A stretch of DNA of 64,000 bases, taken from contig NZ_AP017459.1 of the NCBI RefSeq assembly GCF_002355835.1, forward strand, positions 372,001 through 436,000, in the 5' to 3' direction. The stretch comes from Candidatus Endomicrobiellum trichonymphae. GTDB lineage: Bacteria > Elusimicrobiota > Endomicrobiia > Endomicrobiales > Endomicrobiaceae. The translations under genes were made by a program, and so were the position numbers. Each line of letters opens with the position of its first letter. Position 1 is the stretch's first letter. Of the stretch, positions 24,626 through 39,071 are shown in pieces. Below the pieces are notes generated by a model. The model saw only the letters and a list, made by a program, of their open reading frames with translations. It ran no database searches and was not told where the DNA came from.

Positions 24626-26124
24626 ATGAAGATGAAACGACTGTGGATTAACTATGTTTTACCGCAGCGAAAACTTTTAGCGGTTTCGGTGCTTTTTATG
24701 GTTATATTTGGAGTTTTGGAAGCTGTGTCCGTTAAGTTGTTTGAACCTGTTTTTGACAAAGTGTTTATAGATAAAAATAAGGAAGTCCTTACTTGGGTTG
24801 CTATTCAGATTGTAATTCTTTTTGCTGCAAAAGACGTTGCCTAGTCGGCATGTCAACGCTTGGTGTGAATTTTGTAAAGAAGATGCAAGTCGATTTGTAT
24901 GATAGTACAGGATTTAGAATTTTTCTATAAGAACAATTCGGTTTGTAAGTGATTTAGATTTAGAGAGTCTATTTAAAAGGCGTTACAACTCTTTGCAAGG
25001 ACACCTGTTCAGCACTCTTTTTAGTTATCCTTATGTTTTGATATGGCAGTAGTTATGTTTTTACTTTTCCCCGCAGCTTTTTATCCGATAGTATATTTCG
25101 GGGGGGGGGGGGGGGAATAAAAAGAATTTTTTTCAGACAGCAGATGCATTCCGGGAATTTATACGCAATTCTCACACAGTCGTTTCAGGGGATTAAAATT
25201 GTTAAATCTTAAAATACGGAAGAAGTTGAATATCAAAAAGCAAAAGACAGCACTGATGTATTGTCAGCCACTCAGATAAAAATGGCAAAAAATAATAGCG
25301 TATTAGGCCTTTGCAGGAACTCTTGTGTATGGTGGACACAGAATTATGCGCGGTTCCCTTACTACCGGCTCTTTTATGGTGTTTTTGTTTGCCATAGTTG
25401 CGGCGTATAAACCAAAGTTAATAATGTTAGATTCGATTATGTTCCTGGTTTTGAAATTCTGCATGGCGTAATTTTGAAGTAAGAGAAGAGGAAAAAGTTG
25501 CAATAGTTGGAGCCGCCGGTTCTGGAAAATCTACTTTAATAAATTTGATACTTAGATTTTATGATGTTCAAAATGGGGAAGTATAGAAATTGATGGTGAG
25601 GATGTAAGAGATGTCAAGATAAAGTCTTTGAGAGATAATATAGCTTTTGTTTCGCAGGATGTAGTACTTTTTGATGATACTATTAAGTAATGGGCAGACC
25701 GGCCGCAACGGATGAAGAAGTCATAGAAGCATCGAAGAATGCTGCAGCACATAACTTTATAGTAAATCAGGAACGCAAATATGATACTATTGTCGGTGAA
25801 AGAGGCGGTAATTTGTCCGGCGGACAAAAACAAATGATATCTATTGCGAGAGCCATGTTAAAAAATGCTCCAATACTTTTGCTTGACGAAGCTACAAGCT
25901 CGCTGGATTCCCAATCTGAAAAAATAGTTCAGGAAGGACTTGATAAACTTATAAAAGGCAGAACTTCAATAGTTATAGCGCACCGCTTATCTACAATAAT
26001 CAATTCTGACAGAATATACGTGTTTGAATCCGGCAATATAGTAGAATCGGGAACACACAAAGAACTTCTGAAATTAAAAGGTTATTATACAAATCTTTAC
26101 AAACTCCAATTTGTTCATGAATGA
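24626..26124 (+). pseudogene. Broken ABC exporter gene (MsbA/lipid exporter type)
   Basis: The pieces follow the order of a half-transporter of about 570 residues. The first membrane segment (LAVSVLFMVIFGVLEAVSVK) runs into a stop after 72 codons. A scrambled membrane domain follows and contains a G16 run. The nucleotide-binding domain then appears in changing frames: Walker [17 protein letters not shown]-loop AFVSQDVVLFDD, then an open 144-codon stretch with [29 protein letters not shown] and the H-loop AHRLST. At least four frame changes or stops are needed. Lipid A flippase is likely for this subfamily, but peptide or drug exporters cannot be excluded. Confidence 0.88.
25100..25115 (+). 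repeat. Poly-G tract of 16
   Basis: An uninterrupted run of 16 G inside the broken ABC exporter gene, extreme for this AT-rich DNA. Such tracts slip easily during replication; sequencing error in the exact length is also possible. Confidence 0.9.
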
Positions 26125-26808: not shown

Positions 26809-26882
26809 GTCTCCGTAGCTCAACTGGATAGAGCAACTGCCTTCTAAGCAGTAGGTTGCGTGTTCAACTCACGCCGGAGACG
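26809..26882 (+). tRNA. tRNA-Arg (UCU)
   Basis: The cloverleaf folds fully. The acceptor stem is GTCTCCG with CGGAGAC and discriminator G. The D arm is GCTC...GAGC, and the anticodon stem is ACTGC/GCAGT around the loop CTTCTAA with anticodon TCT (reads AGA). The T arm is TGCGT-GTTCAAC-type. AGA is the dominant Arg codon in this window, so this is a major tRNA. CCA is not encoded. Confidence 0.96.
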
Positions 26883-26893
26883 CTTCTTTCTTT

Positions 26894-26968
26894 GGTGGTT
26901 GTAGCTCAACTGGTTAGAGCGTCGGTTTGTGGAGCCGAAGGCTGCGGGTTCAAGTCCCGTCAGCCACC
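26894..26968 (+). tRNA. tRNA-His (GUG)
   Basis: The acceptor is GTGGTTG with CAGCCAC and the extra G at -1 facing C73, the histidine identity pair. The anticodon stem TCGGT/GCCGA encloses TTGTGGA with anticodon GTG. The T arm is GCGGG-TTCAAGT-CCCGT. It lies 11 bases after tRNA-Arg and shares its promoter. The accessory island begins directly downstream, as is common at tRNA 3' ends. Confidence 0.96.
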
Positions 26969-27123
26969 CTTTTCAAGAGAAATACATTTATTTTTTAATC
27001 GTTTTAATTATATCATTAGGATATAAAAGAGATTTCAATGATAATTGTGAAAATTATGAGTGATTCCTGTCTGTTGACGCGGGCATTTTTTTCTCATTTG
27101 CATAATAGTGTAGGCTAAACGTA

Positions 27124-28800
27124 AATGAAAGAGTTTGTTAAAGATTTCAAAATAGAATATAAAGATTTTGATGCTATTCAGAAACGAGGATATTTGAATT
27201 CAAGAAATTTTAACCTGATACTTTAGTATAGAATCACTATAAAGTATTAAAGGATAGTCTTTTAGTACTTAGATATTCATTTGAAGTATTACGATGAAAA
27301 AAAACCTCATTGTCCTCACTATGGTGGTGAAGGATATATATCTATGATTCCTGAGGATATTTCTAAAGAACAAGCAGAGGAACTGTTTAGAAATTTGAAT
27401 AAAATAGAATCACCTTATGTAAAGTCTCGAATTGCTGACATTTTATGGCATATAAAAAAATTGGATAAAAACAACATAGAGGCAGCAAAAATAGCAATAG
27501 AGTCCTACTATAAAAGTGTTAAGTATTTTGTCAATAACTGTAAAATCTCAGAATTTTTTTTGAAGTTTGCAATAGGACAATTGGAACGTCTCGCTATAAT
27601 AATTTTATCCCTGAAAGATATTCCAAAAAGAGATCATATTTATAATAAACTTCTAGAATATTTAGATAATATTGCTAGTATAGAATTTATATCTGCGGCA
27701 TTTGGAATCTTCCTTAGATTAAAACTTAGTAAAGAAGAAACAAAAGTTGTTATAGAAAAATTAGAAAATTTAATTAAACTATTAGGAGATAAGATAGATG
27801 GTTTTTCATTAAGAAAATTGTATTCAACTGGTGCAGAAATTGCTAAAAAATCTGGCGAGTTATATAAAATGCGTAGTTTTAAAATAATTGAAGCGGATAG
27901 TTTTATAGAAGAAGCAGATAAGATAAATATAAGAGGCTGGATAATAAAATCTGGTTTTTTGAAAAAAGCAATTTTGTTATATCAAAGTATTCCAAGTAAA
28001 AAAATAGAATTGAAGAATTAAATAAAAAACTTGCTGAGGCATGAATAAATATAAAAGATGAAATGGGGACTTTATATTTGACGATGTTAATCTTAATCAG
28101 TGTATTGAAATTAAACAGTTGGTATCAGGTGTGGAGTTTGAATAAGCTATTATCAGATTTATTGATTGTTTCCCTAAATATGAAACATTAACAGCGCAAG
28201 CAGAGAACTATAGTAATCCTAGCTTCATAGATTCAATTACTAATGATGTATGCGGTTCAGAAAGGGGAACAGTGTATATCTCGCATGATCCCGTTGATAA
28301 TAAAATGATTGGATAAAGTGTTTTGTTATATATTTACTAAAGCAATAATAGTGCCTGCAATATAGACTATACAAAATGAGCATATATTTTCATGTAAAAC
28401 AATTTATGAAATTGTAAAAAATAGTTTATTTATTCTTAAGAGACATGGATTTATATTTGCAAAAGGATTGTATCACTTCCTTAGATTTGAAATTATGGAA
28501 GCAGTTTCTCTATTAGTTTCGCAAATTGAAAATTTGTTGAGACAGATACTAAAAAACGCAGGTGTAAATACAAATGTAATAAGATCTGACAAAATTGAAC
28601 AATCAAAAATAGATGTAGAATAGATCATAAATTTATGTTCATCTAATAATTTGATTTCAAAAACGCATTTATTTTATCTAGAAAAAAATACTTATCCAGC
28701 CTTTTTTTAGATTAAGACATGATATTGCTTATGGGAAAGCTGAAGATTCTATTGAATAGTACCATATTGTGTTTTTTGGTTTTTCATTTGGTAATGGTTC
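27124..28800 (+). pseudogene. Broken DUF4209/DUF7380-like gene
   Basis: Coding pieces in shifting frames add up to a large helical protein. The first piece opens with MKEFVKDFKIEYKDFD and stops after about 33 codons. The longest piece (27281-28021) contains YISMIPEDISKEQAEELF and SRIADILWHIKKL, then AAKIAIESYYKS, which resemble the N-terminal half of DUF4209-containing proteins (typically IPEDL...RLADVLW...A..AYL). Near 28540-28760 come LLRQILKNAGVNTN and LRHDIAYGKAED, the DUF4209-like end where intact members read NLRN.IAHG. Stops and frame changes occur near 27225, 28021, 28143, 28315, 28622 and 28708. Family assignment is from memory of motifs. Intact relatives often sit in defence or mobile islands. 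Confidence 0.6.
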
Positions 28801-28929
28801 ATAAAATTGAGCATTATAATAAAATCAATCCAAAATTTGAAAAATTAAAAAGTGTAGTGGCAAATTTAAATAAATATAAAGAAATTATAGATATTTTTAT
28901 GAAAGAAAATATATCATTTTTTTAAAGAG

Positions 28930-29296
28930 AATGTGTGTGAAATATCATTTATGTCGAGCTTGGGAAATATCCTATCAAAGGAGTTTCCGTGTTTTGATGT
29001 GGATATTACTGAAGATAACCAGAATATAATGAAAGTCAAAAAATTTGATATTAGATTTAATAATACATAAAAGAATTAATCAGGATAATAATATGTTTGT
29101 ATGTAAGGCAAAGAAAAGTAATAATAATGAAAATGATATAAGTATCGATAAAAACAGAATAAAGCAAATGACATTAAAAGAAGGTAAGTGTCATTATAAA
29201 ATGGGTTGTTTTATTCATATTGAAAATGAGACTCTAACAAGTTTTTGGTATGAAAGTGGGCAAGAGGTTTCTATTTTAGAACATAAAAATATTTAA
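28930..29296 (+). pseudogene. Gene remnants of unknown function
   Basis: Two short open pieces, SSLGNILSKEFPCFDVDITE (from about 28951) and an 83-codon frame ending EVSILEHKNI (29045-29296), lie in different frames. They have the codon usage of coding DNA but no recognised motif. They may be the tail of the upstream broken gene or a separate small gene. Confidence 0.35.
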
Positions 29297-29504
29297 GTTA
29301 ATAATTATAATATCTAAAATATATGTTTTTTTGTCTAAAGCATCCTTGCTTTTATCTTGGTAAAAATATCTGTAATTCTTTAATTTTTGGATTTTTCTGC
29401 TATGAAAAAATGAAATCATAGTTAGTCGTTTCGAATATGTGTTTATATAAAGCCTGGTATATAAATAGGTAAAAGTATATTAATCTATTCGCCTTTTATT
29501 GTGC

Positions 29505-29533
29505 TTGAAACCCTTATAACATACTGATAGAAT
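29505..29533 (+). promoter_or_regulatory. Sigma-70-type promoter of the AlwI-type system
   Basis: TTGAAA (29505-29510), 17 bases, TAGAAT (29528-29533), giving a start of transcription about 30 bases before the methylase ATG. Confidence 0.5.
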
Positions 29534-29573
29534 ATATGAAAATAACAAAAATTTATTGCATAAAAATTATACT

Positions 29574-31679
29574 ATGGAAACGTTAACTACTGTTGAAGTT
29601 ACTAAAAAATTGATTAATACGAGCAAAATATCTTCTCATGATAAAAGATCTAATCGTGCTGTTTGGACTTCACGATTGATTGATCAATTAAGAAATATTG
29701 TAAACCAAAGGCATATACCAAAGAATCGAGAATTTATCTTGTCTTATAAAACTACCGGTATTAATAATCGCAGATATTTAGGAAATAAATATAAACTTTT
29801 ACCTTTTATAAAAAAAATCGTCAATAATAACTGCAGCAATATTAATACGGTTGCAGACATATTTGCTGGAACCGGAGCCGTAACGTATTTGTTTAAAGAC
29901 AAAAAAATAATTACAAATGATATTATGTACAGCAATTATGTTTGTAACTTAGCATGGTTCGGTTCAGAGAATATTTCCCTAAAAAAGATTATTGAGATTA
30001 TAGTGAGGTATAATAACGATAAAATAAATGCAGATAATTATGTGTCTAAAAACTTTAAAAATACATATTTTAATTTTGAATCTTGCAGAAAGATAGGTTA
30101 TATACGCGAAGATATTGAAAAGTTGTATAAAAAAAGAAAAATTAATAACCGTGAAAGAGCAGTTTTGATTACATCACTGTTATATGCTATGGATAAGATA
30201 GCAAATACTTGCGGGCATTATGATGCATATAGGAAAAATGGCGATTTAAACAAAGGATTAGAGTTATCTGTTCCGGCAGTATTAAATAATTTATGTGATA
30301 ATAATAAGTGTTTTAATAAGGATGCCAATATTTTAGTAAAAGATATAAAAGCAGATTTAGTTTATATAGATCCTCCTTATAATTCGAGGCAGTATTGTGA
30401 TCTATATCATTTTATTGAAAATATAGCCAGATGGGAAAAGCCAAAAGTTAAAGGCGTTGCTAAAAAAATGGAAAGGAGTGATTTAAAAAGCGACTATTGC
30501 ACGCAAAAAGCGTCGAAAGTTTTTGGGGATTTAATATCAAATATAAATGCGAAATATATATTGTTGTCTTATAATAATATGGCATATAAAGGCAATGCCC
30601 GTTCAAACGCTAAAATAAGTGATGCTGACATAATGAGAATACTGTCTAAAAAAGGAAAAATAAAAATATTTTCGCAAAAGTATAAATCTTTTTCTGCAGG
30701 AAAATCGTATATTACAGGAAATAAGGAGCGTTTATTTTTGTGTGTTTGTAAAACTTTTAAATACGTAAAGCCTTTAATATCATCTCCAATGAATTATACG
30801 GGAGGAAAATTCAAACTACTTCCTCAAATTCTTCCAAATTTTCCTAGGAATGTTAATACTTTCGTTGATTTATTCTGTGGCGGTGCAAATGTAGGCATAA
30901 ACGTAAACTATGACAAGATAATATTAAATGACAGAGGGCAGTATATACCGTATCTTTTTAATACATTTAAGAATTTAGATAAAGAAGTTTTATTTAATAT
31001 GATTTATGAAGTTATTGATAAATATGAATTATCTTTATCAAATAAATACGGATATAAAAAATATGATTGTAATAGTGTTGAAGGACTGGGAGCATATAAT
31101 AAGGAAAAATTCCTTAAGATGAGGAAAGATTTTAATACTTATAAAAGCAGAGATTACTACTATTATGTACTGTTATATGTTTTGATAGTATACTCTTTTA
31201 ATAATCAAGTAAGATTTAATTCTAGAGGGGAATTTAATTTACCCGTCGGGAAAAGAGATTTTAATACTCAATTGATTAAAAAGCTGAATTTTTTTATTGA
31301 CAGATTAAAAAGTAATAATTTTATATTTACAAATACAGATTTTAGAAAATTTGACACTACAGCTTTGACAAAAAATGATTTTGTTTATTGTGATCCTCCT
31401 TATCTTATTACCTGTGCTTCATATAATGAACAAAACGGCTGGACAGATAAAGATGAAAAAGACTTGCTTAAGTTTTTAAGTTTTCTTAACGCAAAAGAAA
31501 TAAAATTTGCACTTTCGAATGTTTTTAGAAATAAGGGCAAAGAGAATTCTATACTGTTAGACTGGCTTAAAGATAAATCATATAAGGTAATCCAACTTAA
31601 TAAATCTTATGCAAACTCAAATTATCATACAAAAGATAAAACCGGTAATGCTGAGGAAGTATTAATTGTAAATTATTAG
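29574..31679 (+). CDS. Two-domain DNA adenine methyltransferase of a type IIS system
   Basis: Two complete D12-class (Dam-like) N6-adenine methyltransferase domains are fused. The first has the AdoMet loop RRYLGNKYKLLPF near residue 68 with DIFAGTGAVTYLF and the catalytic DPPYNSRQYCDLYHF near 265. The second has MNYTGGKFKLLPQI near 405 with DLFCGGANVGIN and CDPPYLITCASYNE near 607. Both catalytic motifs are intact. Two domains suit an asymmetric recognition site whose strands need separate methylation, as in M.FokI. The chosen ATG gives 701 residues; an in-frame TTG 18 bases upstream is the alternative. The restriction gene starts 11 bases after the stop. AT content is visibly higher than in the surrounding housekeeping genes, suggesting transfer. 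Confidence 0.92.
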   Translation: METLTTVEVTKKLINTSKISSHDKRSNRAVWTSRLIDQLRNIVNQRHIPKNREFILSYKTTGINNRRYLGNKYKLLPFIKKIVNNNCSNINTVADIFAGTGAVTYLFKDKKIITNDIMYSNYVCNLAWFGSENISLKKIIEIIVRYNNDKINADNYVSKNFKNTYFNFESCRKIGYIREDIEKLYKKRKINNRERAVLITSLLYAMDKIANTCGHYDAYRKNGDLNKGLELSVPAVLNNLCDNNKCFNKDANILVKDIKADLVYIDPPYNSRQYCDLYHFIENIARWEKPKVKGVAKKMERSDLKSDYCTQKASKVFGDLISNINAKYILLSYNNMAYKGNARSNAKISDADIMRILSKKGKIKIFSQKYKSFSAGKSYITGNKERLFLCVCKTFKYVKPLISSPMNYTGGKFKLLPQILPNFPRNVNTFVDLFCGGANVGINVNYDKIILNDRGQYIPYLFNTFKNLDKEVLFNMIYEVIDKYELSLSNKYGYKKYDCNSVEGLGAYNKEKFLKMRKDFNTYKSRDYYYYVLLYVLIVYSFNNQVRFNSRGEFNLPVGKRDFNTQLIKKLNFFIDRLKSNNFIFTNTDFRKFDTTALTKNDFVYCDPPYLITCASYNEQNGWTDKDEKDLLKFLSFLNAKEIKFALSNVFRNKGKENSILLDWLKDKSYKVIQLNKSYANSNYHTKDKTGNAEEVLIVNY

Positions 31680-31690
31680 GATCAGAATTT

Positions 31691-33682
31691 ATGTCTGTTA
31701 AAAATATAAGCTTTAAAAGCTATTGTTGGAATATTGGAACAACAAGTTATAGAACTAAAGAATTCAATACTAATATTGAGAAACAACTTGATATTGTTGA
31801 AAAATTTTGGAATTTGCAGAAAAATAAAAATGAATTGTGGAATGAAAAGATACAAACTGCATATTATAAATATATGCAGAATAATAAATTTGTTAGAGGA
31901 AGTGCTAACAGACCCGCTAAAGATGCGAGAGAAAAAACGTCCGGCTTAGTAGATATAGGATTATTGACTTCAGATAGAAGATTAACTCCGGCAGGACTTA
32001 AATTATTACAAATCAGCAGGGATAAAAATTTTGCCAAAGATAATGAATTAAAAATAGCAAATGACAGTTATATTTATTTAAAGCAATTATTGAAAATGTC
32101 TGTTAAGACTGATATTTACATAGTCAGACCGTTTGTACTTCTTATATATTTTATCGCTAAATTAGGTTGTCTTTCAAAAAATGAATACACTTATATTTTG
32201 CCTTTATGTATAAATAAAGAAATAACTGACAGGGCATTAGTTAAAATCAAAGATATTAGAGATAATAAATGTAGTGTTGATGATTTTATTTTAGATACTC
32301 TTTTATCGATGGATAATTATAAAGAAGCTTTAAAACTTTTAATATCGAATAGAGTAACTGAAAAACTAGTTAAAGTAATCGGCATGAACAGGAAAAGTCA
32401 TAATTATGACAAGCCATATTACATGTTATATAAATCACTATTTACTTTATGTTTTGACAATGGAAAGAATCAACTTCTGAATGTATATAAGAGTATTGAT
32501 GGATTGCGAGGAAAAACGAAATCATTTTGGAATGATTATATGTTTTATTCAAATTCAATTTCAATAAAAACACTAAAAAACAATCCTGAAAAGGCTCTTA
32601 AAAGAACAAGGTTATTAACTTTGAAAACTGAAAAAGATTTTAAAAAAGAATTTTTTAATCTATTACATTTATTTAAAGCAAAAGCAACATTATCCGATTA
32701 TCTTGATCTGAATAGAAGATATTTTAGATTAACTGATACAATACTGTTTCAAGATAATACGGTAAGGATGGATATTATACCTGAGTATTTTTTCAAAGAA
32801 AATATAGATAACATATATAAGTTGGCTTTTACAAAAGATAAAAATATCCAAGAAGATTGTTCTCTTTCAGAAATATCTCCATATCTTATATTTGACGATA
32901 AAAAAATATTAAGAAATATTAATAAATCATTAAAAACAAGGTATTCAAACATTAATGACTTTATGGAGAGGGTTGATGATGAAAGATTGAATCGTTTTAA
33001 ATCACTTATAGAAAAGAAGTTTACAAATGATATGTTAATTAAATTGTTAGAAATGTTTGAAAGTAGAAAACAAGATGTAGAAATAAATAATTATGTTACA
33101 GACAATGCTGATATACCGACGATATTTGAATATGTTGTAGGTATAATTTGGTATAAGATTAGTGAGCAAAAAGGCAATATATTAGAATATATGAATTTAT
33201 CTCTTGATGCAGATTTATTGCCAAAGAGCCACGCGAGCGGAGGAATGGCTGATATTGAATATCATTATAATGAGACTGCTATGTATCCTAAGCATGTTGT
33301 TTTACTTGAAACTACATTGACAAGCGACTCTAATCAAAGGCGCGCTGAAATGGAGCCTGTGTCAAGACATCTTGGCAAATATTTACTAAAACATAAAAAT
33401 GAAAATTCTTACTGTGTATTCTTAACTAATTATTTAAATCTCAATGTAATATCTGATTTCCGTAGCAGAAAGACTCACATATATTACTCTTCGAATGGGA
33501 AAGATTCTGTAAACAGCATGAAAATCATTCCATTACAGACATTAGAGTTAAAAACGATCATATCTAAAGGCATTCTGTATAAACAATTATATTCTGTTTT
33601 TGATAAAGCACATAATTCAGACGGAGAACCAAAGATTTGGTATAGTGAAAATATAAAGAATGTAATTTCTAATTTGAGATGA
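31691..33682 (+). CDS. AlwI-family type II restriction endonuclease
   Basis: The 663-residue protein ends in the AlwI-family nuclease core: LLPKSHASGGMADIEYHY with the metal-binding Asp near residue 522, VVLLETTLTSDSNQRRAEME with Glu near 539, then EPVSRHLGKYL. This is a PD-(D/E)XK variant. The N-terminal half (KSYCWNIGTTSYRTKEFN, then a winged-helix-like region with DIGLLTSDRRLTPAGLKLLQ) should read the DNA. AlwI itself recognises GGATC and cuts outside it; the specificity here is unproven. No frame break is present. It follows the two-domain methylase, so the pair is a complete restriction-modification system. Confidence 0.88.
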   Translation: MSVKNISFKSYCWNIGTTSYRTKEFNTNIEKQLDIVEKFWNLQKNKNELWNEKIQTAYYKYMQNNKFVRGSANRPAKDAREKTSGLVDIGLLTSDRRLTPAGLKLLQISRDKNFAKDNELKIANDSYIYLKQLLKMSVKTDIYIVRPFVLLIYFIAKLGCLSKNEYTYILPLCINKEITDRALVKIKDIRDNKCSVDDFILDTLLSMDNYKEALKLLISNRVTEKLVKVIGMNRKSHNYDKPYYMLYKSLFTLCFDNGKNQLLNVYKSIDGLRGKTKSFWNDYMFYSNSISIKTLKNNPEKALKRTRLLTLKTEKDFKKEFFNLLHLFKAKATLSDYLDLNRRYFRLTDTILFQDNTVRMDIIPEYFFKENIDNIYKLAFTKDKNIQEDCSLSEISPYLIFDDKKILRNINKSLKTRYSNINDFMERVDDERLNRFKSLIEKKFTNDMLIKLLEMFESRKQDVEINNYVTDNADIPTIFEYVVGIIWYKISEQKGNILEYMNLSLDADLLPKSHASGGMADIEYHYNETAMYPKHVVLLETTLTSDSNQRRAEMEPVSRHLGKYLLKHKNENSYCVFLTNYLNLNVISDFRSRKTHIYYSSNGKDSVNSMKIIPLQTLELKTIISKGILYKQLYSVFDKAHNSDGEPKIWYSENIKNVISNLR

Positions 33683-33806
33683 GTTTTTTCTATCAAAAAG
33701 ATAATAAAAACTGCAAAAAATGAAATTGCCTATACTATACTCGGTTTGATTCTAATAGTATAAAAATTAATCTATTTTTTTTGTTGTGAAAAGGAGTATA
33801 TATAAT

Positions 33807-35915
33807 ATGAACATAGTTAGAGGCACTAATATTAATGAAATGTTATCAAAGGAATTGATAGATGCTCTGACAAGAATGTCACTTGAAGGTATTTTATATT
33901 TAGGGTATCCAATAATTTCTATTGATGATGAAGCCAATAGTTGTGATGCGATGTTATTATCTGAAAAATATGGAATTATTATTTTTGATTATAATAATAG
34001 AAATTTTTCTAAAGGTATTGATATTGAAAATGCTCATGATAAATTATACCTTGCGTTGAAGAGTAAGTTAACCAAACATGTAGAACTAACTAAGAAAGAA
34101 GGAAGAGAGAGATTGTTAGATGTACCAATAATTATTATTCTTTTTAGTCCTTCAAAACCGAAGGATTTAGATGATTTTCCTGTTGACTTTGCAACTAAAG
34201 AAAATTTAGAAGAAAAGATACTCTCGTTAGAAAAAAATTTAGATAAAAAATATCTTATACCTTTAAAGGCTGCAATAGATAGCGTAAAAACTTTTAAACC
34301 GAGAAAAAAAAGAAGTAGTGTTACAAAGGAATGTTCAAAAGGAGGAATACTGAAAATTATTGAAAAAGAGATTGCAAATTTGGATAGATGGCAACAAAAA
34401 GCTGCGCTTGAGACGCCAGATGCTCCGCAACGCATTAGGGGATTAGCTGGTTCTGGAAAGACTGTAGTTCTTGCTAGAAAAGCGGCGCATTTGCATGGGC
34501 AACACCCGGATTGGAACATAGCAGTTACATATAATACTCGTTCATTGTGTCAGCAAATAAAAGAACTTGTAAGAAGGTTTTATTACGATCAGTGTGAGGA
34601 TGAACCTAATTGGGAAAAGATAAAAATTATTCCTGCGTGGGGAGGACGTTCTGAGGGGATATATTCACAAGTTGCGAATTATTATAATATTCAGCCTGTA
34701 ACATTTTCAGAAGCGAAATCTTTATATGGACATAATAATGCTTTGAAGGGCATTTGTGATGAATTATTAAAAAAGATTACGTCAATAGGGGAAAAAGAAC
34801 CTATTTATGATGTATTATTGATTGATGAAGCACAAGATTTACCAGTATCTTTTTTTAAAATTGTTTATGAAATTGTTAATGACCCGAAAAGAATTATATG
34901 GGCTTATGATGAGCTGCAAAATTTAGGAGAATATCAAATGGCTCCTCCTGATCAATTATTTGGAGTAAATGAATCTGGACTTCCAAAAGTTGTACTATCT
35001 GATTTACCTGATACTCCAAGACAGGATGTAATCTTGCCAATTTGTTATCGCGGGACAAAATATGCCTTAACAGTTGCTCATGCACTTGGATTTGGTATTT
35101 ATAGAAATAAGGGGTTAGTACAATTATTTGATGATAAAGGTTTGTGGGAAGATATAGGCTATGCAACGATATCTGGCAATTTTGATAGCGCTGGAAAAGA
35201 AATAAGATTGAAAAGAAAGGATGACTGCAGTCCGAATTTTTTTGATAAATGTAAAGTATCTGAAAGTGCTATGCGATGCATAACTTTTAAAGATAAAGAA
35301 GAGCAATATGATTGGTTGCTGAAAGATATAAAATATAATTTGGAAAATGAAGAAATTGAAGAAGATGATATTTTAATAATATTAACCGATCCTTTAACAG
35401 TATATGATGAATCTAGAACTGTTGTGAAGAAATTACTAGAGCATAATTTGAAGTCACATATAGTTGGAATAACAAATGATAGGGATATAATTTTTATTGA
35501 AAAATCAATAGCGATTTCTAGTATATATAGGGCTAAAGGGAATGAAGCTCCGCTTGTGTATGTTTTAAATTCTCAAAGTTGTTTTGATGGAGTAGAACTC
35601 ATTAAAAAAAGGAATATTTTATTTACAGCTATAACACGCTCAAGAGCTTGGGTAAATATATTAGGATATAACGAATTTGATAATGATATGGATGAACTTT
35701 ATAAAGAAGTACAAAAAGTTATTGATAAAAAATTCATATTTGAATTTATAGTTCCAACAAAGGAAGAAGCTGCAAAACTACGTATTATACATAAAGATAG
35801 ACCACATGATTCAAAAGAGCGTATCAGAAAGGGAATAGACTATAAAAAGTTTTTAGATGGATTAGATGAAGATGAAAAAGACTTAGTTGGATATGGCAGG
35901 AATTATAATGAATAG
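33807..35915 (+). CDS. SF1 (UvrD/Rep-like) helicase with N-terminal nuclease-like domain
   Basis: The N-terminal 150 residues contain GILYLGYPIISI and DAMLLSEKYGIIIFDYN, a pattern like NERD or restriction-like nuclease folds although the catalytic set is not certain. Helicase motifs follow: LDRWQQKAAL (Q motif), GLAGSGKTVVLARKA near 211, TYNTRSL (Ia), LLIDEAQDLP near 339, AYDELQNL (III), PICYRGTKYAL (IV), SSIYRAKGNEAPLVYVLN near 573 and FTAITRSRAWVNI near 607. All are intact over 702 residues. The ATG at 33807 follows AAAAGGAG by 10 bases. The next gene overlaps by 8 bases. The setting beside a restriction system suggests anti-phage or anti-plasmid work. Confidence 0.9.
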   Translation: MNIVRGTNINEMLSKELIDALTRMSLEGILYLGYPIISIDDEANSCDAMLLSEKYGIIIFDYNNRNFSKGIDIENAHDKLYLALKSKLTKHVELTKKEGRERLLDVPIIIILFSPSKPKDLDDFPVDFATKENLEEKILSLEKNLDKKYLIPLKAAIDSVKTFKPRKKRSSVTKECSKGGILKIIEKEIANLDRWQQKAALETPDAPQRIRGLAGSGKTVVLARKAAHLHGQHPDWNIAVTYNTRSLCQQIKELVRRFYYDQCEDEPNWEKIKIIPAWGGRSEGIYSQVANYYNIQPVTFSEAKSLYGHNNALKGICDELLKKITSIGEKEPIYDVLLIDEAQDLPVSFFKIVYEIVNDPKRIIWAYDELQNLGEYQMAPPDQLFGVNESGLPKVVLSDLPDTPRQDVILPICYRGTKYALTVAHALGFGIYRNKGLVQLFDDKGLWEDIGYATISGNFDSAGKEIRLKRKDDCSPNFFDKCKVSESAMRCITFKDKEEQYDWLLKDIKYNLENEEIEEDDILIILTDPLTVYDESRTVVKKLLEHNLKSHIVGITNDRDIIFIEKSIAISSIYRAKGNEAPLVYVLNSQSCFDGVELIKKRNILFTAITRSRAWVNILGYNEFDNDMDELYKEVQKVIDKKFIFEFIVPTKEEAAKLRIIHKDRPHDSKERIRKGIDYKKFLDGLDEDEKDLVGYGRNYNE

Positions 35916-36600
35916 AGGAGCATTGAATGTAATAATTAATAATTTAGTTTGTGATATGATAAAATCTAAAATTTCTCAAGTTTATAACGAATCTATATTT
36001 TTTAAAGAAAAAAATACAATATCTGTATCTGTAAAAACTAGAGATTCAATTTCAGATATGACAAATCTTGTTAATATTATCGATAGGTATAAAAAGTTTA
36101 TTGAAAATAAATTTTATAATTTTATTTTATTCGATGGAGCATTAATTCAGATATTTTATAGATTTAAAGAGGATGAAATTGTTGAACACAGATTAGCATA
36201 TGTTCCAAGTCCTATAACTCTTACATCTGAAGAATGCTATAATGAGTCAATTATTGGAATGATAGATATGATTAAAGACGATAAGATAGAGTTAAATAAA
36301 AGGTTGAATGATAGAGCAACTATAAGGTTTGATTTTGATAGAAATAACAGTTCCGAAGATCATCCTGCTTCACATTTAACGTTTATTTCTAATAGTTGTA
36401 GGATTCCAGTTTGCTCTCCAATTACTCCTAATGGATTTATAAGATTCATATTGGAAAATTTTTATAACTTTGAAGTGTTGTTATGCCAAAAGATTGATAT
36501 AGATATAATAAAAAAAATTTGCAATATGAAATATAAACTTTTTGATAAGGTTATAAGTGATGATCATAAAAAGAAATTGCATATAAATTATGATCTTTAA
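35908..36600 (+). CDS. DUF2290-like protein coupled to the helicase
   Basis: A 230-residue protein of unknown biochemical role. The features I match to DUF2290 are HRLAYVPSPITL, the TIRFDFDRN stretch, and the most conserved part HPASHLTFISNSCRIPVCSP followed by GFIRFILENFYNFE. The ATG lies within the end of the helicase gene (ATGAATAG), so the two proteins are translationally coupled and probably made in fixed ratio. GGCAGG lies about 9 bases upstream. An in-frame ATG 15 bases earlier is possible. No membrane segment or signal peptide is seen. Function is inferred only from its partner: a subunit or regulator of the helicase. Confidence 0.75.
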   Translation: MNRGALNVIINNLVCDMIKSKISQVYNESIFFKEKNTISVSVKTRDSISDMTNLVNIIDRYKKFIENKFYNFILFDGALIQIFYRFKEDEIVEHRLAYVPSPITLTSEECYNESIIGMIDMIKDDKIELNKRLNDRATIRFDFDRNNSSEDHPASHLTFISNSCRIPVCSPITPNGFIRFILENFYNFEVLLCQKIDIDIIKKICNMKYKLFDKVISDDHKKKLHINYDL

Positions 36601-37475
36601 AATTTTAATTTTGCAGATTTATCTTTGTTATTTTTATTTAATTTTTCTTTGATGTATACCTTGCAGAAAATAAAGCAGGATATTCAGTTAGCAAGATATC
36701 CGAAGATAAGTCTGCGCATAGAAAGATATAGATATAAAAGAGTATTGAATATGAATACTTTTCTTGAATATAAAGATAAAAACGTTGTAAAAATATTGAC
36801 AAATATTAAGTCCGCTATACTTTTAACTTTTACGGACAAACTTTTTAAAAATATATATAAGTTTTGAGTCTGTGAAGTTTAATGATGTTGTGTAGATTTA
36901 TAGGTATGTATAAAAAGACATTTTTATATATTTATACTGGCGACTGAGAAAGTAAAAGTCAGAGAATTAATATCAATAGGATATAGAAATTTAGCCCGCG
37001 GGATTTGTTTTTCATAGTATTAATATTATATTTTGATGCTGTACAGATGATGTTATATTTCCTCGCAATATATTCTCACCTTAATCCATTCCTCTCTTTT
37101 CAGGCAAAAAGCGATGTAGTAATGCCAATAGAAACACAATATGTCTGTTTTTTCTATAGTTCTTAGTAGGGATCCGGACATTGTTTGTTATATTGAGGGA
37201 AACATATCTAGGAAGTCTGGAATAATCCCGCATCCATTTAAGGAGACTACTTTGTCTCTGAATATCCAGCCCTTTTTTAAGCATATTAAAAGCTTTACCT
37301 TTTTAGAATTACAGTAGCTTAAAGTCGGATCCTCAATAGAAGATTATTGCATATGCAATATTTCAGGATTGATTGAGTTGATATGAACTTTTTTTGTTGT
37401 GTTACTTAGACAAGCAATTAAGTATTTGCTAAAATTACGGATACAAATGAATAATAATTTAAGGATGTTCGTCTT
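36601..37475. other. Decayed region between the defence island and dnaX
   Basis: About 870 bases without an intact gene. A 67-codon minus-strand frame (37284-37081) begins LKKGLDIQRQSSLLKWMRDY and ends with FLPEKRG; its composition is protein-like but I do not recognise it and it has no neighbour that completes it. The plus-strand frames here look non-coding. Confidence 0.4.
37406..37435 (+). promoter_or_regulatory. Possible promoter of dnaX
   Basis: TTAGAC (37406-37411), 18 bases, TAAAAT (37430-37435), about 40 bases before the dnaX ATG. Confidence 0.4.
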
Positions 37476-39071
37476 ATGGCATATCTTGTTTTAGCAAGAA
37501 AATTCAGACCGCAGAATTTTGATGAAGTTGTCGGACAGGAACATATTTCGCAAACTCTTAAAAACTCAATTTCTGAAAAACGCATTGCCCATGCCTATTT
37601 ATTTAGCGGACCTAGAGGCTGCGGCAAAACCACTATGGCTAGAATTCTTGCTAAAGCTTTAAACTGTAAAAATGGTCCGACAATTAAACCATGCGGAGTA
37701 TGTGAAAACTGTGTAGAAATTTCAAAAAGCTCAAGCGTCGACGTTTTAGAAATTGACGGAGCATCGAATAACGGCATAGATGATATAAGGGTTTTAAGGG
37801 AGAATGTGAAATTCTCAACTGCCAGTTCAAAATATAAAATTTATATTATAGACGAAGCTCATCAGATAACAGCTCAGGCGTTTAATGCATTGCTTAAAAC
37901 GCTTGAAGAACCACCCGCTCACGTTATTTTTATTATGGCTACAACCGAACAGCATAAAATTCCCATTACCATTCTTTCAAGATGTCAGAGATACAGGTTT
38001 AAGCTTATATCTGGTGCTGAAATGGTTTGCGCAATAAAGAGTATAGGACAGGAAGAAGGTTTTGAAATAGATGACGAAGCTTTAAATATAGTAACTTCAG
38101 CCTCCGGCGGCTCTATGAGAGATGCCTTAAGTCTTTTAGATCAAGCGGTGTCTTCAAATACAGGCAGAATAACCGGTGACTATATGAGAGGACTGCTTGG
38201 ACTTCTTCCAAAAGATATTATAGTTTCGGTTACAGACAATATTGCGAAAGGCGATATACATGCAATTCTAAAAATCGTCAAAGAAATTTACGAGCAGGGG
38301 TATAATATTTTGCAGTTTGCAAGAGATTTAAGGGAGCATCTCAGAAATGTTATGATTTATTCTATAAACCCCGCCATCGCAGAAATTTCTTCTGAAGACA
38401 AAAAGATTTTTGATGTTCAAAAATCTTTGTTTACCGTCTCCCGCTATGTGCGTATGAATAATCTTTTATCAAAAGCTCTTGAAGAAATGCGCTGGCATGA
38501 CCAGCCCAGAATTCTTCTTGAGATGTATCTTCTTAAGATGTCGGAGCCGTATTATGATGTCGGCGAACTTATAAATAAGATAACTGACTTAGAGAGAAAT
38601 TTCAGGACTTGCGGTAATTCGCAGCTGCCTTTTGAAAAGCAGCCTGCAGTGCGAAGCGAATCTTGTGCTGCCGGTAAAGTTTTCGATCCTGCAGATTTGA
38701 CAGTCGTGTGGAATGATATTGTTTCTGAAATAATAAAAAAACATTCGCTTACGGGGCAGCCGTTAAAAAATGCGTTAATTAAGATAGAAAGCGACTCATC
38801 GATACAGTTAGTATTTTCAAAACAATTTGATTACGATTCTGGTTTGGAATTTCAAGAACAGATTGCAAAACTTTTCCAAAGAATGACCGGTTTAAATGTA
38901 GCAATAAAAATCGTTATTGAAAAGAATATATCTAAAAATAAAGCGGTATATGAGGATGCGGTTGTTAAAGAAGAGTGTCCCCATCCGAATAAAGAAAACG
39001 CAAAAACTACAATACCTGCGCGCATAGAAGAAATAGCAAAAAGGTTTGGTTCTGTCGCCAAAAAAATTTAA
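37476..39071 (+). CDS. dnaX: DNA polymerase III subunit gamma/tau
   Basis: DnaX is the clamp-loader ATPase of the replicase. It starts with the family signature YLVLARKFRPQNFDEVVGQ and has Walker A FSGPRGCGKTTMARILAKAL near residue 43. A zinc module with CKNGP, CGVCENC follows, then Walker B YIIDEAHQITAQAFNALLKT and the SRC motif TILSRCQRYRFK. The 531-residue length means a tau-like C-terminal extension is present. The start follows AAGGATG-type sequence. In most bacteria ybaB and recR come next; here recR follows only after about 1.3 kb of broken DNA. Confidence 0.96.
   Translation: MAYLVLARKFRPQNFDEVVGQEHISQTLKNSISEKRIAHAYLFSGPRGCGKTTMARILAKALNCKNGPTIKPCGVCENCVEISKSSSVDVLEIDGASNNGIDDIRVLRENVKFSTASSKYKIYIIDEAHQITAQAFNALLKTLEEPPAHVIFIMATTEQHKIPITILSRCQRYRFKLISGAEMVCAIKSIGQEEGFEIDDEALNIVTSASGGSMRDALSLLDQAVSSNTGRITGDYMRGLLGLLPKDIIVSVTDNIAKGDIHAILKIVKEIYEQGYNILQFARDLREHLRNVMIYSINPAIAEISSEDKKIFDVQKSLFTVSRYVRMNNLLSKALEEMRWHDQPRILLEMYLLKMSEPYYDVGELINKITDLERNFRTCGNSQLPFEKQPAVRSESCAAGKVFDPADLTVVWNDIVSEIIKKHSLTGQPLKNALIKIESDSSIQLVFSKQFDYDSGLEFQEQIAKLFQRMTGLNVAIKIVIEKNISKNKAVYEDAVVKEECPHPNKENAKTTIPARIEEIAKRFGSVAKKI

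Follow-up and report, generated by a model that had tools for sequence, protein, structure and literature searches.

The stretch of DNA analysed here (the window, 64,000 nucleotides from Candidatus Endomicrobiellum trichonymphae) carries a gene for a UvrD-like SF1 helicase, followed directly by a gene for a DUF2290 protein (Table 1). Judging by gene content and genome size, the host is probably an Endomicrobium-type symbiont of flagellates in the termite gut. A preliminary description of this DNA had reported a 702-residue helicase and a 230-residue partner, both intact and overlapping by eight bases, and this was confirmed by the open reading frames, by the SF1 motifs of the helicase and by the match of the partner to PF10053 (E = 1.9e-38), the sole Pfam match of that protein. 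The two genes are co-directional, lie in different frames and share bases 35908–35915. No stop interrupts their frames over a combined 932 codons, and each start is preceded by a purine-rich sequence (AGGAG for the helicase and AGGA for DUF2290). A scan for promoters and terminators gave results no better than those obtained with shuffled sequences. The GC3 of the pair is low, at 17–19% as compared with around 30% in three core genes.

Upstream of the pair, on the same strand and separated from it by around 124 bases, is a restriction–modification (R-M) system (29556–33682). As the preliminary description had stated, this system is intact: both the tandem D12-class methylases and the AlwI-type endonuclease are full length. 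The tandem fusion of two D12 domains in the methyltransferase of this AlwI-type system is what an asymmetric recognition site would lead one to expect.

Table 1 Features of the helicase/DUF2290 locus (coordinates are those of the window)
Feature	Coordinates	Strand	Details
tRNA-Arg(tct) and tRNA-His(gtg)	26809..26969	+	Left edge of the putative variable defence spot
Tandem fusion of two D12-class adenine DNA methyltransferases (type II R-M)	29556..31679	+	PDLC03292, E = 6.5e-235; PF02086 in two stretches
AlwI-type restriction endonuclease, full length	31691..33682	+	PF09491, E = 1.1e-71, profile 2-441/441
UvrD-like SF1 helicase gene	33807..35915	+	ATG at 33807, stop at 35915, 702 aa; helicase component of Helicase+DUF2290
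DUF2290 gene	35908..36600	+	ATG at 35908, ends at 36600, 230 aa; putative effector
dnaX-like core gene	37476..39071	+	Right edge of the putative variable defence spot

The interval between the tRNA genes and dnaX

The R-M system and the pair lie between the tRNA-Arg/tRNA-His genes and a core gene that we take to be dnaX. A dnaX-like gene was found in 41 of the 42 genus genomes searched, and its order with the next core genes is conserved. The nearest same-genus genome (G004) has the same tRNA pair and dnaX edges (92% and 81% identical DNA), and between them it encodes a type I R-M system, a Fic protein, a type II methylase and an LmuB-like protein. Pieces of the window's methylase and AlwI genes are also present there. 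No traces of the helicase or DUF2290 were found in this syntenic interval of G004. From the gene content of the two genomes, we read the interval from the tRNA genes to dnaX (26809–37476) as a defence hotspot with turnover, which would be common to two species of a genome-reduced genus and would offer a useful place for finding further systems.

The 3′ end of tRNA-His was considered as an att site and rejected, as it has no repeat of at least 16 bases elsewhere in the window. Two short open reading frames lie to the left of the R-M system. One, encoding 246 residues (27281–28021), matches the PADLOC candidate PDC-S39 over profile positions 74–305 of 615, with DUF7380, and is probably a truncated defence gene. 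The other, encoding 144 residues (25690–26124), resembles by inspection the C-terminal portion of the ATPase of an ABC transporter and is likely a remnant. The earlier statement that most accessory genes of the region are dead was followed up by a spot-check only, in which the partial PDC-S39 match agreed with it.

The helicase and its N-terminal domain

The helicase matches the PADLOC Helicase model PDLC03002 over residues 1–677 (E = 1.4e-214) and the Pfam families UvrD_C_2 and UvrD-helicase, and its SF1 core motifs are intact (GLAGSGKT, DEAQD, RAKGNEA and TAITRSRAW). Its AlphaFold model (pLDDT 89.7) is UvrD-like by structure comparison, with Z-scores of 26–28 to UvrD and of 26 to the helicase domain of SLFN11. 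In this predicted model, residues from 1 to approximately 175 adopt a NERD-like strand–helix order of the PD-(D/E)XK type. The N-terminal domain had earlier been called nuclease-like, which holds for its predicted topology but not for its motif: D47 is present, whereas ExK is absent, with FDYNN at its position.

The same pattern was seen across 90 aligned homologues, in which the ExK columns 61 and 63 are variable and never have a consensus E or K. D47 is kept in 83 of these 90 helicases, and Q77 in 77 of them, with H77 in the window copy. ECK or EVK occupies the ExK columns in relatives that are further removed, which mostly carry the annotation of nuclease-related-domain (NERD) helicases, and no DUF2290 was found next to these ExK-keeping helicases in the stretches examined. 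In a tree built from 34 helicase-core rows, a 100/100 branch splits the distant NERD helicases from the DUF2290-paired ones. At the level of aligned sequence, these comparisons show loss of the ExK motif in DUF2290-paired helicases and its retention in distant NERD helicases without DUF2290. The loss is not strictly tied to pairing with DUF2290, because the motif is also missing from two solo helicases of haloarchaea. Directly upstream of both of these lies a hypothetical gene of around 243 codons (L170:2092-2823 and L176:1487-2218), with no DUF2290; it is possibly a different partner in the same role as DUF2290. Further NERD helicases were sought in viral contigs, and none were found there.

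The DUF2290 protein and the distribution of the pair

Two PADLOC DUF2290 models match the downstream protein (E = 3.3e-40 for PDLC02998), and its predicted structure is confident (pLDDT 93.1). Its 70 homologues are divergent, with 16–33% identity to the window copy; D76, R140, H152, H156, R165 and F177 are invariant in this set, and D142, Y61, P100, P102 and Y186 are nearly so. A sequence search of the PDB found no relatives of DUF2290, and a fold search with the predicted model, against the PDB and viral structure predictions, gave nothing at E ≤ 0.001 (best VIA-align Z of 5.1). Because neither a structure nor a significant relative by fold or profile was found, an effector role for DUF2290 rests on the conserved residues, which could bind a ligand or a partner instead of catalysing. 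DUF2290 was not detected in phage records at E 0.01; viral contigs do hold helicase/DUF2290 pairs.

A scan with the helicase alignment, taking one genome per species, gave 466 related loci, of which the best 80 were kept, including two without downstream sequence. DUF2290 is the next gene on the same strand in 76 of the 78 loci with downstream room among these best 80 of 466, and lies within 60 bases in 64 of the 76; because the scan kept the nearest relatives, this figure covers the present helicase clade and not all UvrD helicases. Of the two exceptions, one has a type I R-like gene following on the opposite strand (L048) and in the other the helicase itself is broken (L039). The plasmid records that contain DUF2290 number 16, and they are the same 16 that rank best for the helicase; the helicase is directly upstream of DUF2290 in each of nine regions that were opened. 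Co-occurrence of the two families, which the preliminary description had proposed as a check, was thus borne out.

Elsewhere, the neighbours of the pair include BREX genes, type I R-M genes and Abi genes. A general association with defence genes is weakly supported: among the 128 nearest neighbours in other genomes, a count made with no background control, no family is common to more than three, and defence genes (type I specificity subunits, Mads, LmuB and BrxL) occur together with housekeeping genes. Such ordinary neighbours, along with the UvrD-like fold, would suit a helicase that serves housekeeping repair or replication, aided by an accessory subunit, and has no part in defence. Against this, the distribution of the pair is very patchy, it is located on plasmids and viral contigs, the window copy sits in a hotspot of defence genes, and an anti-phage test of another copy has been published; this explanation is already largely refuted, and we give it hardly any credence.

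On a Thioflavicoccus plasmid (L014:1-16489), the pair is inside a BREX cluster, where the methyltransferase gene lies on one side of it and the PglZ gene on the other. Further copies are present on Acinetobacter plasmids, one of which carries tet(39), and on an E. coli IncI plasmid that is conjugative (L010, L015 and L012). Given these plasmid-borne copies in Acinetobacter and E. coli, the pair may also serve plasmid–plasmid competition.

A single genome contains the pair, both among the 77 of the family and among the 341 of the phylum, a sparse occurrence that makes horizontal acquisition likely, and we consider that the pair was probably acquired in this way. No close donor was found, the top identity in the helicase-core tree being 50%. 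Presence in a single family genome would also be expected if the pair were a defence system by descent that is now non-functional or drifting in a reduced genome, its intactness reflecting recent acquisition. Other features in line with such drift are the low GC3, the state of the adjoining R-M system in G004, where only debris is left, the long branch of the window helicase (0.89 in the helicase-core tree) and its departures from the family consensus at 4 of the 82 columns in which conservation reaches ≥95%; N to G at 416 is one of these. The long branch and these departures could mean weakened function. By contrast, both frames have stayed open, the helicase motifs are kept and the window DUF2290 retains all 12 columns conserved at ≥85%, and we regard drift as quite improbable. 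The earlier argument that intactness implies selection was not substantiated: no close homologue for dN/dS was found, and the helicase departs at the four conserved columns.

Proposed mechanism and comparison with known systems

The preliminary description had called the pair a candidate defence system. Defence is supported by the PADLOC models, the pairing, the defence neighbours and an anti-T7 test of another copy, but 'candidate' understates the case, the system having been described and tested in 2022. In that work, an ATP-dependent helicase and a DUF2290 protein from P4-like satellites specifically inhibited T7, and the same pair was found in prophage hotspots of Vibrionales and Bacillales (Rousset et al. 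2022, PMC9122126). The system is named Rst_HelicaseDUF2290 in DefenseFinder-based papers and appears in defence surveys. On the evidence of its sequence, the window pair is a member of this published Helicase+DUF2290 anti-phage system and not an undescribed module, and we infer that the window copy acts in defence. We found no description of the mechanism of Helicase+DUF2290 in the searchable literature, and in this respect the earlier account appears correct.

We think it rather probable that the pair is a horizontally acquired Helicase+DUF2290 copy in which the helicase is the sensor and motor, its N-terminal domain an ExK-less module and DUF2290 the effector. The two proteins would be co-produced and would work as a complex, in which the UvrD-like helicase would load on or unwind foreign or replicating DNA, of a phage or perhaps a plasmid, and its N-terminal nuclease-like domain, with the catalytic ExK gone, would be a DNA-binding or docking module. 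DUF2290, with a putative active site formed from D76, R140, D142, H152, H156 and R165, would then cut or modify nucleic acid once the helicase is engaged. That the cutting domain of the helicase has no cutting site points to DUF2290 as the active part. The economical reading would be that the helicase is a sensor whose nuclease domain is dead and that DUF2290, as we infer, is the effector. The family-wide dead nuclease domain of the helicase and the invariant D/R/H set of DUF2290 give this mechanism a concrete, testable form.

A tentative and somewhat doubtful extension is that DUF2290 is an effector that cuts nucleic acid or is toxic in another way, has a fold unseen in solved structures and replaces the NERD activity in trans; the system would then have arisen from a NERD nuclease-helicase whose own nuclease was inactivated and which gained a separate effector.

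In P. aeruginosa, the helicase PA1372 and its partner PA1371 are assigned to Helicase+DUF2290 by prediction. PA1372 underlies the fitness cost of a plasmid, and inactivating mutations relieve that cost, which favours our main reading; that PA1372 acts through rep expression in the published account, a route that is not obviously DNA cleavage, counts against it. Alternatively, the helicase could be imagined as the active component, blocking phage or plasmid replication by unwinding DNA or displacing proteins, with DUF2290 as a non-catalytic specificity or regulatory subunit. This would accommodate the intact helicase motifs, the fall of the compensatory mutations of PAO1 in PA1372 and the failure of DUF2290 to match any known enzyme fold. 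We consider it unlikely in view of the D, R and H residues that are invariant in so divergent a set of DUF2290 homologues, which is typical of a catalytic or ligand site, and of the loss of the nuclease motif in partnered helicases, which suggests that activity moved to the partner.

With DUF2290 as the putative effector, the proposed outline resembles Hachiman and Gabija, but the effector is unrelated to theirs. Like the window pair, Hachiman (HamAB) consists of two genes, for a helicase and a small partner; its helicase is a sensor and its partner a nuclease (PMC12278908). That partner is HamA (DUF1837), whereas the window partner matches PF10053 and no other Pfam family, and the window helicase is a UvrD-like SF1 enzyme. 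Gabija (GajAB) has a UvrD-like helicase in common with the window, and the window helicase weakly matches the GajB models (E = 7e-8). The partner in Gabija is the GajA nuclease, whereas in the window the downstream partner is the PF10053 protein DUF2290 and the upstream gene encodes the AlwI endonuclease.

The order DG...RLAY...HPxxH of the translation-targeting TumE toxins (PF20126; PMC10584680) recurs by eye in DUF2290 (35908–36600 compared with L147/L148). By eye this hints at a distant relationship of DUF2290 to TumE, which we treat as no more than a lead: the hhalign probability was 0.7%, which is not significant, and only the DG...RLAY block was aligned.

Solo NERD UvrD-like helicases, such as L171-L174, L177 and L178, are homologous to the window helicase in both the helicase core and the N-terminal domain, and the order of the two is the same. 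They keep D...ExK, and no DUF2290 partner accompanies them in the stretches examined, whereas the window helicase lacks the ExK part of the N-terminal D...ExK that defines a NERD nuclease-helicase and is paired with DUF2290. A solo NERD helicase on a Haloarcula plasmid is closely followed downstream by genes for a DUF1837 protein and a DEAD/DEAH helicase, a Hachiman-like arrangement (L172:5775-7938). Beyond the preliminary description, our analysis adds the hotspot and this dead-nuclease contrast with solo NERD helicases; the pair itself is ordinary in kind. The window holds a helicase of the family of Helicase+DUF2290 and a PF10053 protein, encoded by adjacent genes on the same strand, and the pair resembles that system in its near-full-length protein matches, the order of helicase then DUF2290, the gene overlap and the defence setting. 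It differs only in host lineage, as the sole copy among the phylum genomes.
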